Below are positions 4,530 to 21,996 of a stretch of 23,175 bases of DNA, piece after piece. Source of the DNA: a virus. A program made the position numbers and the translations under genes. How positions within the stretch are numbered: position 1 is the first letter of the stretch; every line of letters starts with the position of its first letter. The notes under the pieces are model-generated. The model ran no database searches and was not told the DNA's origin. It saw nothing but the letters and a program-made list of their open reading frames with translations. The stretch lies in IMG/VR virus record IMGVR_UViG_3300030108_000511, positions 1 through 23,175 of that record. One strand, written 5' to 3'.

Positions 4530-4937
4530 TTAAGAACCTTTCATCTTAACCATTTTTGCGGGTCTAAAGCCTTTAGTAGCAATTCTAACGCCACGTACTT
4601 TACCTTTACGCTTGCCGCCCGCTGCGCCACCTTTTGAGTAGCCCTTTTTCATGCCGCCCATAGCGTAGCCCTTCTTTTTCTTAGCCATACCACCGTCAGC
4701 CATATTCTTCTTTTTCTTCATACCTCCAGCGGGCATACCTTTAGCCATACCACCAACGGCCATGCCTTTTTTCTTTTTCTTCATACCTCCAGCGGGCATA
4801 CCTTTAGCCATACCACCCGTAGCCATGCCTTTCTTTTTCACATCGCCTCCTGTTTTCATGAATCCCATTTTATTTCTTACTGATTTGGGTAACTTAGGTA
4901 AACCCTTATTGCCTTCAGGTATTTCTCTATTCGCCAT
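4530..4937 (-). CDS. Lys/Met/Gly repeat protein (135 aa)
   Basis: The start chosen is ATG at 4937, preceded by a GAGGACGGAG-type ribosome binding site and overlapping the end of the upstream gene by 11 bases; an ATG at 4988 would need a long overlap. After a normal N-terminus (MANREIPEGNKGLPKLPKSV) the protein becomes low complexity. Two near-identical 21-residue units at about residues 38 to 58 and 59 to 79 (GMAxGGMAKGMPAGGMKKKK) are followed by degenerate copies and a basic tail with GVRIATKGFRPAKMVKMKG. It has no acidic region and is strongly positive, so it probably binds nucleic acid or coats DNA in the virion; this is inferred. It lies in the late operon. Confidence 0.7.
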   Translation of the reverse strand: MANREIPEGNKGLPKLPKSVRNKMGFMKTGGDVKKKGMATGGMAKGMPAGGMKKKKKGMAVGGMAKGMPAGGMKKKKNMADGGMAKKKKGYAMGGMKKGYSKGGAAGGKRKGKVRGVRIATKGFRPAKMVKMKGS

Positions 4938-16440: not shown

Positions 16441-16664
16441 TCGAGACCAATCTCAAAATTTTAGGAGTCGTTCGTGCAAATTAGTAATATATACGCGCGT
16501 ATGGTACCAGACTGTGCGATTGGGGTATGGGGCTTCTGTAAGTGCTTACTGTAAGAATTGACATTGCCCTCCCGATTTGAGAAGATTGTTTTCGTTGGAG
16601 GGCGCCAATGCCCGCAACCCCACCTACTGCGGGTCGCAGTAGACCAGAAAGAAAAGGAAACATT
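16441..16664. promoter_or_regulatory. Divergent intergenic region with candidate plus-strand promoter
   Basis: The non-coding gap between the divergent operons spans 16336 to 16664. In its right half are a perfect 12-base palindrome ATACGCGCGTAT (16491..16502), an inverted repeat GTAAGTGCTTAC (16538..16549) and a perfect -35 box TTGACA (16558..16563) with only a weak -10 (AAGATT, 16582..16587, spacing 18). The two small palindromes could be operators; this is inference. The first hairpin repeat lies just downstream, at 16624..16642, then AAGGAAA as ribosome binding site. No RNA gene or other ORF is supported here. Confidence 0.45.
16624..16642 (+). repeat. 19-base palindrome, copy 1
   Basis: CTACTGCGGGTCGCAGTAG: an 8-base-pair perfect stem with a GGT loop. 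It lies 22 bases upstream of the ATG at 16665, just before the AAGGAAA ribosome binding site, in what would be the 5' leader RNA. Confidence 0.9.
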
Positions 16665-17495
16665 ATGGATATTAAAAACGCATTCAACGTGCAAGCGGTA
16701 AAAGCGGACATCATCGCCGACGGCCATGGGTCTAAAGAGTTAGAGCTAAATGGCAAACGCAAGCTGACCAAGGACGCCATTCCTGCAGTGGTTCAGAATA
16801 TCAACTTGCTAGATCAAGCTGACTCAAGGGTAAATAATTTGTTCGCTGATCTAGCTGAGACTGGTATGTCAGGTGCTCTTATCTCGCCCCACGTTGGCGA
16901 GATTGACGGTGTGAAGAGTTTGCACGATAAGAAAACCAAAACGTGGGAGACTTTGGTCTTCTGTTCGAGAATTGCACTCTTTAACAGTGACACGTTTTTC
17001 GGTGGGAAGTATAAAGTCTATGCTCCTCTATTCGAGTACATCGCAACCTTTCCAGTTAAGGGTAACAAGCTATACTCGCAATTTGCTGAAGATGGTAAAA
17101 GCCTATCTGATAACGCTGATCCAAAGTTTAAAGAGCTTTATGGCAACGGCGAATTAGGCGGGTACAAATCCACTAAAAAGATTTGGGACGCTGGCAAAAA
17201 ACAAACTTCCTCTAAGCTTCACAAGCTTCAAACTAAATTGCTCAAGCTGGACCCGAAAGCGATAGCCTATCGTGAGGCGAATCCAGTGGTTAAGGGTAAG
17301 GACGACTCATTACCTAAAAGCGATAAAGCTAAATTAGAGGACATGGTTAGTGAGTTATCAGCAACGGTTTTAGCGCTCAAGGACGCTGAAGCAAAGCTAC
17401 CTGAAAACGAGCAAAATACTGCTCCCGTAGATTTTGAGGCGATTATCAAAGCAATCAAGGAAGTAGAAAAATTGCTGAAGAAAGTCAATTCCTAA
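16665..17495 (+). CDS. Unknown 276-residue protein, first gene of the plus-strand region
   Basis: The start chosen is ATG at 16665 (MDIKNAFNVQAVKADIIADG), with AAGGAAA seven bases upstream. An in-frame ATG at 16608 would add 19 residues, partly encoded by the palindrome, and lacks a good site. The N-terminal half contains QNINLLDQADSRVNNLFADL and HVGEIDGVKSLHDKKTKTWE, the middle FFGGKYKVYAPLFEYIATFP, and the last 120 residues are Lys-rich and helical (SKLHKLQTKLLKLDPK, then a coiled-coil end KAIKEVEKLLKKVNS). I recognise no domain. Standing at the origin-side of the early region, it might be a DNA-replication or host-takeover protein, but this is a guess. A strong terminator follows at once. 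Confidence 0.75.
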   Translation: MDIKNAFNVQAVKADIIADGHGSKELELNGKRKLTKDAIPAVVQNINLLDQADSRVNNLFADLAETGMSGALISPHVGEIDGVKSLHDKKTKTWETLVFCSRIALFNSDTFFGGKYKVYAPLFEYIATFPVKGNKLYSQFAEDGKSLSDNADPKFKELYGNGELGGYKSTKKIWDAGKKQTSSKLHKLQTKLLKLDPKAIAYREANPVVKGKDDSLPKSDKAKLEDMVSELSATVLALKDAEAKLPENEQNTAPVDFEAIIKAIKEVEKLLKKVNS

Positions 17496-17515
17496 AATCT
17501 ACACTGGAACATTTA

Positions 17516-17541
17516 GGGAGCCAATCGGCTCCCTTTTTTTT
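17516..17541 (+). terminator. Rho-independent terminator
   Basis: A perfect 7-base-pair stem GGGAGCC/GGCTCCC (17516..17522 and 17527..17533) around the tetraloop AATC is followed by eight T. It begins 21 bases after the stop of the 276-residue gene and makes it a separate transcription unit. Confidence 0.92.
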
Positions 17542-17558
17542 GCCCAAAAAAATCGATG

Positions 17559-17631
17559 CCAGTTACCTCGACTGCGTTGAGTCCGAGCCGCCATGCCTAG
17601 CAATAATACCAGTTCCCGCGACTGCGTTGAG
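17559..17631. repeat. Pair of 23-base direct repeats
   Basis: Two copies of a 23-base sequence (17559..17581 and 17609..17631) differ at two positions and share CGACTGCGTTGAG at their right ends. They are 50 bases apart, between the terminator and the tandem hairpins. No coding frame with a ribosome binding site uses them. They may be binding sites of a phage protein. Confidence 0.75.
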
Positions 17632-17645
17632 CCTGACGTAAGAAC

Positions 17646-17664
17646 CTACTGCGCCCCGCAGTAG
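17646..17664 (+). repeat. 19-base palindrome, copy 2
   Basis: CTACTGCGCCCCGCAGTAG: 8-base-pair stem with a CCC loop, followed by ACAATGTTCG. Together with copy 3 it forms a 30-base identical repeat with a 31-base period (17645..17674 and 17676..17705), in non-coding DNA. Confidence 0.9.
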
Positions 17665-17676
17665 ACAATGTTCGCC

Positions 17677-17695
17677 CTACTGCGCCCCGCAGTAG
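17677..17695 (+). repeat. 19-base palindrome, copy 3
   Basis: It is identical to copy 2 and directly in tandem with it, one base separating the two 30-base units. Both units end in the AATGTTCG box that recurs through the candidate origin. Confidence 0.9.
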
Positions 17696-18079: not shown

Positions 18080-18108
18080 TTGACATATGTAGCTACCCGT
18101 GAGATAAT
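18080..18108 (+). promoter_or_regulatory. Strong sigma-70 promoter of the MoxR/VWA operon
   Basis: A perfect TTGACA (18080..18085) and GATAAT (18103..18108, one base off consensus) are separated by the ideal 17 bases. Transcription should start at about 18115, where an ATG happens to lie. The leader of roughly 95 bases carries hairpin copy 4 just before the ribosome binding site of the first gene. Confidence 0.85.
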
Positions 18109-18114
18109 ATGTTT

Positions 18115-18222
18115 ATGGCTGGGATATTGAAAAATTTTTACAGATCAGTGCTCGGCCTTCGACCTACTGCGGAACGCAGTAGATACTTTTCAAAAACTAG
18201 GAGTAACAAATGGGTATCATAA
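18115..18222 (+). CDS. Possible leader peptide (35 aa), weak support
   Basis: An open frame starts with ATG at the predicted transcription start, so it would be a leaderless message, and overlaps the next gene's start in another frame. The peptide reads MAGILKNFYRSVLGL, then RPTAERSRYFSKTRSNKWVS, with the palindrome coding for PTAERSR. It has a basic, amphipathic look. There is no ribosome binding site. It may be a chance frame: the palindrome has no stop codon in two of its three frames. It is listed because its start coincides with the predicted transcription start. Confidence 0.2.
   Translation: MAGILKNFYRSVLGLRPTAERSRYFSKTRSNKWVS
18164..18182 (+). repeat. 19-base palindrome, copy 4
   Basis: CTACTGCGGAACGCAGTAG: 8-base-pair stem with a GAA loop, in the 5' leader of the MoxR/VWA operon, 27 bases before its first ATG. 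It begins a 41-base block (18163..18203) repeated, with three differences, at 19254..19294 before the next gene. Confidence 0.92.
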
Positions 18223-19253
18223 ACAAGGTAAAAGAAAGATCAGAACAGCAGAGTCAACCATCGGAAGGTGTCCTACTGCCGAGCGCAGTAGAGTCGGACG
18301 GTGAACAACTCACGCAACAATCCACCCAACACCAGAACCCGATCCAAGTAGATATACCTGACATACGTAGTTCTGCTATCTTGGTTGATCTGACCATCAC
18401 CGAGTGGTCGGGTAGTAAGAAGGACACGAGAGCGTCTGAGCAAGTAACTTCCATGAACCAAGCAGTAGAGAATTCTGCCAAGGTCATCAAGGAGTTGTTA
18501 CCCAAGTCGCATCTCCTCAAGGACTTGCACAACTACGTGGCGAGGGTTCGCAAGCAACATATCCAGCTGACTATGCCGTGGGGCGAACGTGGCACGAGGT
18601 TACTACCTACCGCCATGCTACCTGATTACAAGGCGTGGGCAGTCGAGGCCGAAAAAGAGTTCCACGAGCGAGTTACTAAGTTTGTGGACAGCTACGAGTT
18701 TGAACTCAAGAAGGTCAACATCGAGCTAGGCAGTTTGTTCGATGCAGGTGACTACGATACCAAGGAGCAGGTCAACGCTAGGTTCTCGATTTGCTACGAC
18801 TACATACCTGTACCCAACTCTGGCGACTTCCGCGTGGACGTTGGCAAGGAAGCACTGGCAGAGTTACAGACAAGTTGTGACACGGCCTATGCACGTATCA
18901 TCGAGCAGACAACGGCTGACCTATGGAAACGGTTATCGCAACCGCTGACCAACATGGTAAACCAATTACAAGAATCCAACTTTGACGGTAGCGTTCGTGG
19001 TTACAAGCAGAACGGTGAACCGAAAGAAGCAGGGTTCAAGGCCACGCTAGTGCCTAACGTACTAGACATCATCAAGATGATGAAGGCCGCAAACTGGGGT
19101 GATGATCCGACGATGAACAACGCAATACTTTCGTTGGAAACCACCCTCACAGGCGTAAGTTCTGACATGTTGAAGGGTAACACCACGACACGCCAGAGAG
19201 TACGTACCACAGCGGAGCAGGTGTTGAAGTCAATACCTACTCTAAACATCTAA
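18210..19253 (+). CDS. DUF3150-like protein of the MoxR/VWA operon
   Basis: A 347-residue protein with a probable disordered N-terminal tail (residues 1 to about 48, Gln/Ser/Glu-rich). This tail holds a palindrome copy coding for LLPSAV at 22 to 27. The body starts with SSAILVDLTITEWSGSKKDT, then long helices including KEFHERVTKFVDSYEFELKK and NARFSICYDYIPVPNSGDFR. The 'LVDLxIxxWSGSKKD' start, the length and the place before a MoxR ATPase and a VWA protein suggest DUF3150, a family often found with such pairs, whose function is unknown. The assignment is moderate. GGAG lies seven bases before the ATG. It ends 48 bases before the ATPase start. Confidence 0.7.
   Translation: MGIINKVKERSEQQSQPSEGVLLPSAVESDGEQLTQQSTQHQNPIQVDIPDIRSSAILVDLTITEWSGSKKDTRASEQVTSMNQAVENSAKVIKELLPKSHLLKDLHNYVARVRKQHIQLTMPWGERGTRLLPTAMLPDYKAWAVEAEKEFHERVTKFVDSYEFELKKVNIELGSLFDAGDYDTKEQVNARFSICYDYIPVPNSGDFRVDVGKEALAELQTSCDTAYARIIEQTTADLWKRLSQPLTNMVNQLQESNFDGSVRGYKQNGEPKEAGFKATLVPNVLDIIKMMKAANWGDDPTMNNAILSLETTLTGVSSDMLKGNTTTRQRVRTTAEQVLKSIPTLNI
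18273..18291 (+). repeat. 19-base palindrome, copy 5 (in coding sequence)
   Basis: CTACTGCCGAGCGCAGTAG: 7-base-pair stem with a C-C mismatch at the top, in reading frame (LLPSAV) within the N-terminal low-complexity tail of the DUF3150-like gene. It differs from the consensus inside the upper stem. Confidence 0.85.
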
Positions 19254-19254
19254 C

Positions 19255-19273
19255 CTACTGCGGATGGCAGTAG
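19255..19273 (+). repeat. 19-base palindrome, copy 6
   Basis: CTACTGCGGATGGCAGTAG: 7-base-pair stem with a G-G mismatch beside the GAT loop, one base after the stop of the DUF3150-like gene and 28 bases before the ATPase ATG. It starts the second copy of the 41-base leader block. Confidence 0.9.
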
Positions 19274-19301
19274 ATACTTTTCAAAAATTAGGAGACTACT
19301 T

Positions 19302-20387
19302 ATGTCAGAAATAAGACTTAACACAGGACTAGAACTACAACTTGACGAGTGCGTTGACTTCATTGCCGAGGTCGGGCACAAGCTAACCGTACTACTCGAA
19401 GGTGACATGGGTAACGGCAAGACCTCAACACTAGATATGCTTGCCAAGCGATTCCCTGACCACACTCCGATACTGTTTGATACTACTACCAAGGACATCG
19501 GTGACATGCTGATACCCAAGGTGGCAACGATCAACGACAGCAACGTGGTACAGTTTGCCGTCAATGAAGAACTAGGTATTCATCTCAACAAACCAGTGCT
19601 AGTTTGCATTGACGAGTTTGGTAAGGGTAACCAAGGCGTGATACGTGCGCTGACTAGGTTCTGCTTAGAACGTAAGATTGGTATGTACGAACTGCACCCT
19701 GATTCGATTGTCTACGCTACTACCAACAAGGGAAGCGAAGGGGTCGGTGACCTACTGTTACCGCATCAACTTGATCGAGTTATCAAGGTCAAGGTGCGTA
19801 AGCACAAGGCAGTCGAGTGGATCGATTGGGGTATCGCTAACGATATAAACCCTGCCATCTTGGGGTTCGTTAAAGAGTTTCCACAAGTGTTACAGTCTTT
19901 TGAAGACGTACCCAATCCCGAAGACAATCCTTATATCTTCCACCCACAGGCGCAACGCGAAGCGTTCGTTACTCCTCGGTCGTTATCTATGGCGAGTTTT
20001 ATACTCAACCATCGGGACGGGCTGACTAAGACTACCTTGAGAGCAGGACTTACTGGTGCCATTGGAGAAAGCGCCGCTCGTGACCTCGTAGCGTTCATCG
20101 ACTTGGCTGACCAACTACCCACCATCGATTCTATCAAGGAGTCACCTGAGACTGCGTTAGTACCTACCAGTAACTCCGCTGTGTGTATGGTTGTGTACAG
20201 AGCGTTGGCAGTCATGGAGCGTGATTGGGTCAACTCATGGGTTACCTACATGAACCGACTCAACAAGGAAGCGCAGGGTTTGTTCGCCAATGGCGTTCGT
20301 GCCAAGAACTACCACAAGAAAGAGTTACTCACTACCAACAAGAAGTTTACTGATTGGTGTCGTGAGAATCACTACTTGTACTCATAA
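19302..20387 (+). CDS. MoxR-type AAA+ ATPase
   Basis: A 361-residue single AAA+ domain. Walker A is GDMGNGKTS at residues 34 to 42, Walker B VLVCIDE at 99 to 105, sensor 1 Asn142 in YATTNKG, and a probable arginine finger Arg159 in LPHQLDRVIKV. The C-terminal part (about 180 to 361) has VTPRSLSMASFILNHRDGL and the helical lid, ending NKKFTDWCRENHYLYS. MoxR ATPases work with VWA-domain proteins to insert cofactors or remodel client complexes. The partner here is the next gene. Which client the phage targets is unknown. TAGGAG lies just before the ATG, after hairpin copy 6. It is in frame with the preceding gene, with only that gene's stop codon between. Confidence 0.88.
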   Translation: MSEIRLNTGLELQLDECVDFIAEVGHKLTVLLEGDMGNGKTSTLDMLAKRFPDHTPILFDTTTKDIGDMLIPKVATINDSNVVQFAVNEELGIHLNKPVLVCIDEFGKGNQGVIRALTRFCLERKIGMYELHPDSIVYATTNKGSEGVGDLLLPHQLDRVIKVKVRKHKAVEWIDWGIANDINPAILGFVKEFPQVLQSFEDVPNPEDNPYIFHPQAQREAFVTPRSLSMASFILNHRDGLTKTTLRAGLTGAIGESAARDLVAFIDLADQLPTIDSIKESPETALVPTSNSAVCMVVYRALAVMERDWVNSWVTYMNRLNKEAQGLFANGVRAKNYHKKELLTTNKKFTDWCRENHYLYS

Positions 20388-20402
20388 GGAAGGGGGTGAC
20401 TA

Positions 20403-21599
20403 ATGCAACTATCAACTCTTACTCAAGAACAACGTCTCGAACGGGCGTTCGTTGAGATTATCAACAAAGATAGGTACTTATATCTAGCCAGCATACTTAT
20501 GCACGGGGCAAGTATAGTTACCGATGACCCAAGCGTACCGACAGCGTGTACCGATGGCCGAGACGTTATGTACAATCGGGCGTTTCTGGAATCTCTGACA
20601 GACGAGGAGCTACGGTTCCTTGTCTTGCACGAGGTATACCACAAATTGTTCCGACACTTGCGTACGTGGAAGCACTTACACGACAAAGACCACGAGTGCG
20701 CTAACGGTTCTTGTGACTACGTGATTAACTTAATGCTCGTGGACGAGAACAAAAAGGACGGTTTCGCCAAGATGCCCAAGGGTGGTCTACTCTCTGAGAA
20801 GTACCGAGGCATGAACACGCAACAGGTGTTCGACTTACTCTACAAAGAGAAAGAGGAGCAAGGAAGCCAAGGTGGTTCTACTGCGGAGCGCAGTAGCCAA
20901 GGGTTTGACGAACACGATTGGGAAGGCGCACAAGAACTGACCGATGAAGAAGCCGAAGAACTTGAGGCCGAAGTAGACAGCGCACTGCGTGAGGGTGCTA
21001 TCTTGGCAGGTAAGGCAGGTGGTAACATGTCAGATGACATCAAGGAACTGCTACGCCCCAAGGTCAACTGGCGCAAGGTGTTACGAGACTTTGCCACGGA
21101 GCAATGCGCGGGTAGGGAGTACGGTACTTATGCCCGTCCTAACCGTAGGTTCGTTGGTTCTGATATCTACTTACCAACGCCTGTATCGGACACGGTGCCA
21201 GAGTTGTCCTGCGATATGGACACCTCTGGTAGTTGTTGGAATGTCCTGCCTTACTTCTTGGCAGAGTTGAAAAGCGTGTGTTCAACGATCAAGCCACACA
21301 AGCTACACGTTCTCTTTTGGGACACTGACGTAGTACACGAGGAGTACCAACAAGATGAACTAGATACCTTGGAGGTCAAGCATGCACACGGTGGGGGCGG
21401 TACAGATGTTCGTTGTGTTACTAAGTACCTACAATGCAACAACATCAAGCCAACCGCATCGATTGTGTTTACCGATGGTTACCTGAGTGCTGGGTGGAGC
21501 GAGTGGAATCACCCTGTGTTGTGGGTAATTGTGGATAACCCTAGTGCTAGGCCACCAGTAGGTAAGTACGTACATGTTAGCTCGGCAGATATACAATGA
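20403..21599 (+). CDS. Metallopeptidase-like/VWA-like protein (DUF2201 type)
   Basis: A 398-residue protein with two parts. The N-terminal part has HEVYH (His76 to His80, an HExxH zinc motif) followed by DYVINLML (Asp105), as in putative metallopeptidases of PF13203 type. The C-terminal part has a MIDAS-like set: DTSGS (273 to 277), GGGTD (Thr334, Asp335) and TDG (357 to 359), as in VWA-like domains of DUF2201. Between them lies a Gly/Ser/Glu linker (about 147 to 195) with palindrome copy 7 coding for STAERSS. The usual partner is a MoxR ATPase, here immediately upstream with a strong AAGGAAGGGGGTG ribosome binding site. The catalytic activity is not known even in relatives. The stop overlaps the next gene's ATG. 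Confidence 0.85.
   Translation: MQLSTLTQEQRLERAFVEIINKDRYLYLASILMHGASIVTDDPSVPTACTDGRDVMYNRAFLESLTDEELRFLVLHEVYHKLFRHLRTWKHLHDKDHECANGSCDYVINLMLVDENKKDGFAKMPKGGLLSEKYRGMNTQQVFDLLYKEKEEQGSQGGSTAERSSQGFDEHDWEGAQELTDEEAEELEAEVDSALREGAILAGKAGGNMSDDIKELLRPKVNWRKVLRDFATEQCAGREYGTYARPNRRFVGSDIYLPTPVSDTVPELSCDMDTSGSCWNVLPYFLAELKSVCSTIKPHKLHVLFWDTDVVHEEYQQDELDTLEVKHAHGGGGTDVRCVTKYLQCNNIKPTASIVFTDGYLSAGWSEWNHPVLWVIVDNPSARPPVGKYVHVSSADIQ
20878..20896 (+). repeat. 19-base palindrome, copy 7 (in coding sequence)
   Basis: CTACTGCGGAGCGCAGTAG: perfect 8-base-pair stem with a GAG loop, read in frame as STAERSS (residues 159 to 165) in the linker between the metallopeptidase-like and VWA parts. Confidence 0.92.
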
Positions 21600-21799
21600 T
21601 CGGGCGCATGTGGTACACGGATAGCAACGAGGGACATCAAGCGTACATCGAGTATGCTCTCGTTGATAATCCGAGACTCTCTCACGTTACCTACAAGGTA
21701 AAGGTGAGTGACATTAAACTGATCGGGAAGTTTGACCGCAAGGCCGCTTCCCGAATCAAAAACGAAATTGTGCAAGATATGAAGGAGAACGAAGCATGA
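21596..21799 (+). CDS. Small unknown protein (67 aa)
   Basis: A 67-residue protein that starts on the stop codon of the VWA gene (ATGA) and ends on the start of the next (ATGA), so translation is coupled at both ends. It contains MWYTDSNEGHQAYIEYALVD and a basic helical end (GKFDRKAASRIKNEIVQDMK). No motif is recognised. It may be an accessory to the MoxR/VWA pair, judged by position only. Confidence 0.6.
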   Translation: MIGRMWYTDSNEGHQAYIEYALVDNPRLSHVTYKVKVSDIKLIGKFDRKAASRIKNEIVQDMKENEA

Positions 21800-21996
21800 T
21801 TAGATTACTCCTCGCTGCGACAGCGATAGGTTTTTACCTTGTGATAAGTACTCACGATTACAACAACGAAGTGATAGCGGAGCGGGCATACATTACTAAT
21901 GTATGCTCTGGCGTGTACCCTGATTACAAAAACTTAAACCCAAAATGTTCTACTGCGGAGCGCAGTAAAGGAGACTTAAATGAAGATATTAGATAG
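21796..21996 (+). CDS. Small membrane-anchored protein (66 aa)
   Basis: A 66-residue protein with a hydrophobic N-terminal segment (residues 2 to 18, MIRLLLAATAIGFYLVIS), so it is either anchored in the inner membrane or exported. It is followed by NEVIAERAYITNVCSGVYPD, with Cys37 and Cys51. The C-terminal end is the palindrome-coded STAERSK plus a short acidic tail. Small phage membrane proteins with this 'VCSGVxPDYKNLxPKC' pattern are known to me, with no function. The last 17 bases overlap the start of the next gene. A spanin-type role cannot be excluded, but there is no partner gene. Confidence 0.6.
   Translation: MIRLLLAATAIGFYLVISTHDYNNEVIAERAYITNVCSGVYPDYKNLNPKCSTAERSKGDLNEDIR
21950..21968 (+). 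repeat. 19-base palindrome, copy 8
   Basis: CTACTGCGGAGCGCAGTAA: identical to copy 7 except that the last base is A, so seven pairs and a C-A mismatch. It codes for STAERSK at the end of the 66-residue protein and is also directly upstream of AAGGAG and the ATG of the 338-residue gene. Confidence 0.88.

Follow-up and report, generated by a model that had tools for sequence, protein, structure and literature searches.

Why does a phage carry one short palindrome again and again in a single part of its genome, at times inside its genes? The question is raised by the virus record IMGVR_UViG_3300030108_000511, of which we analyzed positions 1–23,175 (the window). The palindrome, CTACTGC(N5)GCAGTAG, is present in eight copies in the window when at most one mismatch to the 19-mer pattern is allowed, compared with 0.11 expected from dinucleotide shuffles, and a ninth copy lies just past the window end at 23259–23277 of the 28,114-base parent record. 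All copies are confined to the rightward early-gene region, where they occupy gene leaders, a non-coding stretch and open reading frames (ORFs) (see table). The early region has no DNA match among named phages, the exact 19-mer was found elsewhere in only two other viral contigs, each with a single chance-level copy, and Rfam returned no match. From comparison with related phages, we are moderately confident that the palindromes and the product of the first early gene (FEG) would form a recognition pair that controls early transcription at the DNA level.

The original prediction held that copies 5, 7 and 8 are read in frame in protein tails and linkers, and that they resemble the palindromic elements that insert into Rickettsia genes. 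Copies 5 and 7 do keep the frame of the DUF3150-like and VWA ORFs, and the 19-mer is indeed free of stop codons in two of its three frames. Both lie in variable, disordered-looking regions, as judged by length variation and low complexity in alignments. Copy 8 does encode its peptide near the C-terminus of a 66-residue ORF (at codon 52, with 8 further residues after it), but because its end lies 11 nt before the start codon at 21980, we regard it as mainly a leader copy into which the upstream ORF reads.

Searching with the MoxR protein yielded 56 related contigs (35–56% identity) and the VWA alignment 80 more, with 589 confirmed relatives in all; the group is large and mostly uncultured, and its phages have 3–16 palindrome copies. 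About 100 related phage contigs have palindrome families of their own, with over 20 different arm sequences, among them TTCGGGCA, TTAGGGA, GTATGGG, GTTAGTG, GTAGTG, GTTAGTCC, GATCAGA, CCTTACA, GTAGGGG, TTATGC, TGTATACA, GTTCTAACA and TTTTGTGTAT. Most of these phages have one dominant family each, at 3–13 copies per locus, compared with a recurrence of 1–4 (usually 1–2) in shuffles of the tested records, and in most full-length records (57–67 kb) the copies are restricted to one early region of about 8–20 kb. The Planktothrix phage Pag-Yong1 has 22 GTTCAGNCTGAAC-type sites. No palindrome family in the first 50 kb and no significant FEG match were found in the pelagiphages HTVC027P, HTVC023P and 023Pt_psg01 or in DSL-LC04 and CRP-7. 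A literature search, with thin coverage of subscription journals and preprints, found no description of these palindromes.

The places of the palindromes are conserved while their sequences change. In the first palindrome-bearing set, the MoxR gene has a palindrome 7–57 nt upstream in every phage except L030. In a set of 82 non-redundant loci, a palindrome precedes the MoxR start codon by no more than 60 nt (4–56 nt) in 61 of 81 cases, and its end is mostly 14–25 nt from that codon. The VWA linker holds a palindrome in 26 of 81 loci, at residues 149–188, drawn from eight families; the other relatives have none there. The encoded linker peptides include STAERSS, GMGKPIQ, RSDPSDP, EVGDTPT, STSGEVQ, GSGSLPN, QSDPSDP, GRESPTD and similar ones. 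Palindromes within the DUF3150-like ORF number 47, nearly all in its first 15%, and some of these may be leaders with the true start codon further on; the conserved AAA protein has only four. The peptides at the same in-gene position are unrelated, and so it is the DNA site that is retained, with the encoded peptide as a by-product. An old peptide motif, carried by all homologues over diverged DNA, is thus ruled out, since the peptides differ between palindrome families and some relatives have no site at all. The in-gene copies are found in disordered-looking tails and linkers, where a handful of residues makes no difference.

Mobile palindromic repeats, spread by insertion and tolerated in intergenic gaps and linkers, could account for the many near-identical copies per genome, for adjacent copies that sometimes share a centre, and for in-frame copies in variable regions. 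The parallel with Rickettsia is not supported, however, and we consider such an origin very improbable indeed. Distant phages have different palindromes, more than 20 families in all, at the same positions, and only in their early regions. Sister phages with near-identical flanks have different arms at one site, as if swapped in place, and a simple insertion of a 17- or 19-mer would shift the frame, as it would for copies 5 and 7. We did not find scattered sites that are empty in relatives, as mobile repeats would leave; most positions are shared by the different families. Many relatives lack the VWA-linker site, yet that position is common to several families, and linkers with and without a site differ in length by about 6 residues (32 loci, p = 0.07, a weak test).

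Sister phages reveal how the sites change. At orthologous sites the differences are mostly in the centre, and in about 45 of ~450 compared site pairs (which are not independent) one palindrome as a whole reads as the reverse complement of the other. For several of these pairs both 40-bp flanks are identical (L025:10423 versus L028:7099; L014:7038 versus L019:7066). These inversions between sisters show that the orientation of the centre is free. The spacer has its modal length in 569 of 591 sites (96%), and this fixed spacing, together with free inversion of the centre, points to recognition of a dyad in DNA. Whole arms are also replaced within conserved flanks, with GTATGGG becoming GTTAGTG between L025 and L027, and TTCGGGCA becoming TTAGGGA in L016 versus L018 and L021. 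As separate observations, centre inversions between sisters with identical flanks (L014–L019, L023–L063, L044/L045) form a small natural record of hairpin-spacer inversion, a kind of mutation known from chloroplast DNA. One phage, L027/G003 (L080), has two families, GTATGGG in 8 copies and GTTAGTG in 3–4, with GTTAGTG replacing GTATGGG at the MoxR leader within conserved flanks. L064 has TGTTAGTATACACTAACA at its MoxR leader and GTTAGGG-type sites elsewhere; its MoxR block looks recombinant, because its MoxR is only 68% identical to that of the sister L022 although the two share the palindrome and a 91% identical FEG.

FEG lies between the first palindrome and the non-coding stretch. We located the FEG family in 67 loci by profile iteration; its members are basic, with a median isoelectric point of 9.3. 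Among phages whose MoxR proteins are 90–99% identical, those with the same palindrome have FEGs of 35–99% identity (Z 16–101), whereas the TTCGGGCA/TTAGGGA pairs have FEGs of 23–26% (Z 0.8–3.8). In L019 and L018, which have different palindromes, MoxR is 99% identical and FEG 23% (Z 0.8); in L035 and L047 FEG is 24% identical (Z 10.4), and the FEG of the mixed-family phage G003 is 72% identical to that of G010. Thirteen of the 14 pairs with a FEG similarity of at least 0.40 have the same arms, and the remaining pair differs by one letter per arm (TGTATACATATGTATACA / TGTCTACATATGTAGACA); below 0.30, 43 of 416 pairs have the same palindrome. Since locus pairs are not independent, Mantel permutations are the fairer test. 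Over 41 non-redundant loci and 21 core families, the partial correlation of FEG with palindrome identity is 0.38–0.39 given MoxR, DUF3150 or VWA (p 0.001), and that of MoxR, DUF3150 or VWA given FEG is 0.05–0.09. Given its nearest neighbours on either side, FEG retains 0.44 (p 0.002) and 0.47 (p 0.001). In these comparisons the arm sequence is thus shown to track FEG and not the surrounding genes. Were the palindromes sites for a host protein that differs between hosts, they could follow the host, and FEG divergence would only mirror host range; we think this highly improbable, as FEG tracks the palindrome better than the genes either side of it do.

Other candidate binders were rejected. An AlpA-like helix-turn-helix (HTH) protein has a recognition region conserved across phages with different palindromes, and only some of the phages encode HTH-DUF6378 and SANT-like proteins. 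A protein whose N-terminus is SANT-like (L071:12534–13247 and L018:9573–10352), encoded just before a palindrome, is unusually divergent (41%) between otherwise similar phages.

We scanned the intervals from FEG to the DUF3150 gene, and the 260 nt before FEG, for sigma-70 promoters matching the consensus at 11 or more of 12 positions, and found 57, versus 1.3 in shuffles. The nearest palindrome usually starts 37–174 nt after the –10 element and overlaps neither hexamer; in the CCTTACA group and one CTGTAA group the site lies instead 47–62 nt upstream of the –10 end of the FEG promoter. The median spacing between sites is 962 bp. Because the sites lie in leaders predicted to be transcribed, before later genes and inside gene bodies, they fit control of elongating RNA polymerase better than promoter occlusion. 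As to whether the sites might themselves be promoters of the N4-type hairpin or T7-type kind, strong host-type promoters lie upstream of them instead, and no RNA_pol family match was found in 14 records, where a control set likewise gave none.

Alternatively, the palindromes could function at the RNA level, forming hairpins in early transcripts that FEG binds or that are cleaved, so that translation or stability of the following gene is controlled. In most copies a stop codon precedes the palindrome and a Shine-Dalgarno site follows it, and in the predicted folds of the window leaders (–9 to –15 kcal/mol) the palindrome is the main hairpin. Against this, copies within the body of the VWA gene or in non-coding sequence lack a start codon on which to act, the centres flip freely while the spacer length is fixed, and arms with a single mismatch have no G-U preference (3 G-T versus 7 A-C, a small count). 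To our knowledge, sequence-specific reading of an RNA stem would also be unusual. We judge a role as RNA hairpins unlikely. It is improbable that FEG is an origin-binding replication initiator with the palindromes as its iterons, some of them dispersed. The non-coding stretch after FEG does hold palindromes beside a conserved tandem element, and covariation of RepA with its origin in the phage-inducible chromosomal island-like elements (PLE) is a demonstrated precedent (PMC8263062), but most copies are at gene starts or in genes spread over about 7–20 kb, and promoter-linked copies keep their leader position.

For a FEG–palindrome recognition pair, we propose that FEG, a basic, all-helical protein, would bind the sites as a dimer on double-stranded DNA. 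Bound FEG would then affect RNA polymerase past the initiation step, most probably by forming a roadblock, although the sign of the effect is a guess. Such a roadblock could shut down early transcription along with FEG's own gene, as stoperators do, and the in-gene copies would be sites of this kind, kept where the encoded peptide can vary. Exchange of FEG with adaptation of all sites would diversify specificity, plausibly driven by competition among co-infecting phages or with parasites.

Several observations weigh against this proposal. By sequence, the FEG of the window is only a weak member of the family, with an E-value of 0.02 against the family profile; it ranks high in a set that included 405 background ORFs, and most neighbouring ranks are also first early genes. 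Its AlphaFold2 model is all-helical, with a similar helix order towards the C-terminus. FEG has no Pfam or PHROG family above the cut-off and matches no recognised DNA-binding fold in structure comparison. Neither PDB nor BFVD gave a clear fold relative (best BFVD E 0.02, to an uncharacterised phage protein; best PDB Z 6.0, not meaningful for a helical bundle), which does not show that the fold is new. FEG can be very divergent within one palindrome family, as in the 43 same-palindrome pairs below 0.30. Two palindrome families are present in L027/G003 with one FEG found, L064 has its one odd site at MoxR, L065 and L066 have FEG and no clear palindrome family, and in Pag-Yong1 no FEG was detected beside its 22 palindromes. 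Once FEG is accounted for, small residual correlations persist for MoxR and for the divergent gene (p 0.03–0.05). Lastly, the location just before Shine-Dalgarno sites would suit a role in RNA as well.

Palindrome copies, genes and other elements of the early region (positions in the window)
Feature	Position	Strand	Description
Palindrome copy 1	16624–16642	.	Leader of FEG; 22 nt from its end to the start codon
Palindrome copy 2	17646–17664	.	Non-coding stretch
Palindrome copy 3	17677–17695	.	Non-coding stretch, in tandem with copy 2
Palindrome copy 4	18164–18182	.	Leader of DUF3150-like gene; starts 56 nt after –10; 27 nt from its end to the start codon
Palindrome copy 5	18273–18291	.	In frame, codons 22–27 (LLPSAV), N-terminal tail of DUF3150-like ORF
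Palindrome copy 6	19255–19273	.	Leader of MoxR gene; 28 nt from its end to the start codon
Palindrome copy 7	20878–20896	.	In frame, STAERSS at codon 159, variable linker of VWA protein
Palindrome copy 8	21950–21968	.	Leader of gene starting at 21980, 11 nt from its end to the start codon; also STAERSK in tail of upstream 66-residue ORF
FEG	16665–17495	+	276 residues encoded by 16665–17492, helical, mostly basic family; proposed cognate palindrome-binding regulator (synteny and weak profile match)
Predicted intrinsic terminator of FEG	17515–17534	+	Consensus match
Second cis element, copy 1	17556–17586	+	Consensus ~TGATACCAGTTN6gtaGCGttGAGCCt
Second cis element, copy 2	17606–17636	+	Same consensus
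Predicted sigma-70 promoter of the DUF3150-MoxR-VWA gene set	18080–18108	+	TTGACA-17-GATAAT
DUF3150-like gene	18210–19253	+	Label of the original prediction, kept as a name only
MoxR-type AAA ATPase gene	19302–20387	+	PHROG 1297
VWA gene	20403–21599	+	DUF2201_N plus DUF2201

The DUF3150-like protein matched no Pfam or PHROG family at threshold. The second cis element is present in 51 related loci, mostly in 2–4 copies in the non-coding stretch after FEG, and often lies 7–13 nt 3' of a palindrome. Its sequence, in contrast to that of the palindromes, is conserved from phage to phage, and the element may serve as an origin repeat or as a site bound by another protein. Outside the early region, tandem lysine-, glycine- and methionine-rich repeats (GGMAKGMPAGGMKKKKK) are encoded at window positions 4681–4842 in an ORF of the structural region.

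These phages may hold a widespread and undescribed form of post-initiation control in apparently lytic phages, in which FEG reads dispersed palindromes in leaders and gene bodies and a hypervariable specificity is replaced as a set of the protein plus all its sites, even between phages whose neighbouring proteins are 99% identical, probably for homotypic exclusion or escape from competitors. We offer this wider picture tentatively, at somewhat less than even chances. If it is true, it would name a control system for a phage group that is abundant and mostly uncultured, and its over 20 arms and 589 VWA relatives provide tens of natural pairs of one protein family and its changing DNA target. 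They would be a direct way to learn how the specificity of a DNA-reading protein shifts and how ten scattered sites keep pace. The system also shows that a coding linker can retain a DNA site at the cost of its peptide sequence.

Among known systems, the Rickettsia palindromic elements are mobile, roughly 100–150 bp long and in frame inside genes. The likeness is that of palindromic DNA in frame within genes; here the sites are 13–20 bp and occupy conserved positions. Temperate mycobacteriophages of Cluster A (L5 type) have stoperators, sites that are 13 bp long, asymmetric and preferentially in one orientation (PMC6550527, PMC9283540), and whose motif diverges together with the repressor (PMC6550527). 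The present system is like them in that a short phage-specific site recurs in many dispersed copies, mostly outside promoters and in transcribed regions, and one phage protein, FEG, is the proposed reader, with motif and protein diverging together. The placement of palindromes downstream of promoters would fit a stoperator-style block to elongation. It differs in that the sites are palindromes of about 13–20 bp without orientation, whose centres flip and whose whole arms are replaced between close relatives. No integrase was found in 18 records and no HTH_3 domain exceeded the cut-off in 14, records that may be incomplete, and the FEG family has no clear fold relative. In view of the symmetry of the sites, the absence of an integrase match in those records and the different protein family, we do not count the palindrome system among stoperators.

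The extended start-associated sequences (ESAS) of Cluster K phages are imperfect 17-mer inverted repeats whose spacer varies and whose consensus sequences are related across the cluster, and the start-associated sequences (SAS) are 13 bp and asymmetric (PMC3203893). In Cluster K the repeats mark the translation starts of some of the genes, ESAS inverted repeats lie just upstream, and related phages have them at the same gene families (PMC3203893). Here, too, the repeats are tied to the translation starts of a gene subset. There is no shared, conserved 13-bp asymmetric element; our sites are symmetric, with a fixed spacer and hypervariable arms that differ completely between phages, and some copies are inside genes. 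In PLE, the RepA DNA-binding domain and the semi-palindromic origin sites covary and swap together as a module (PMC8263062). That system has one origin with three iterons, compared with about ten sites at gene starts here, and it illustrates that covariation of this kind can mark a cognate pair (PMC8263062).

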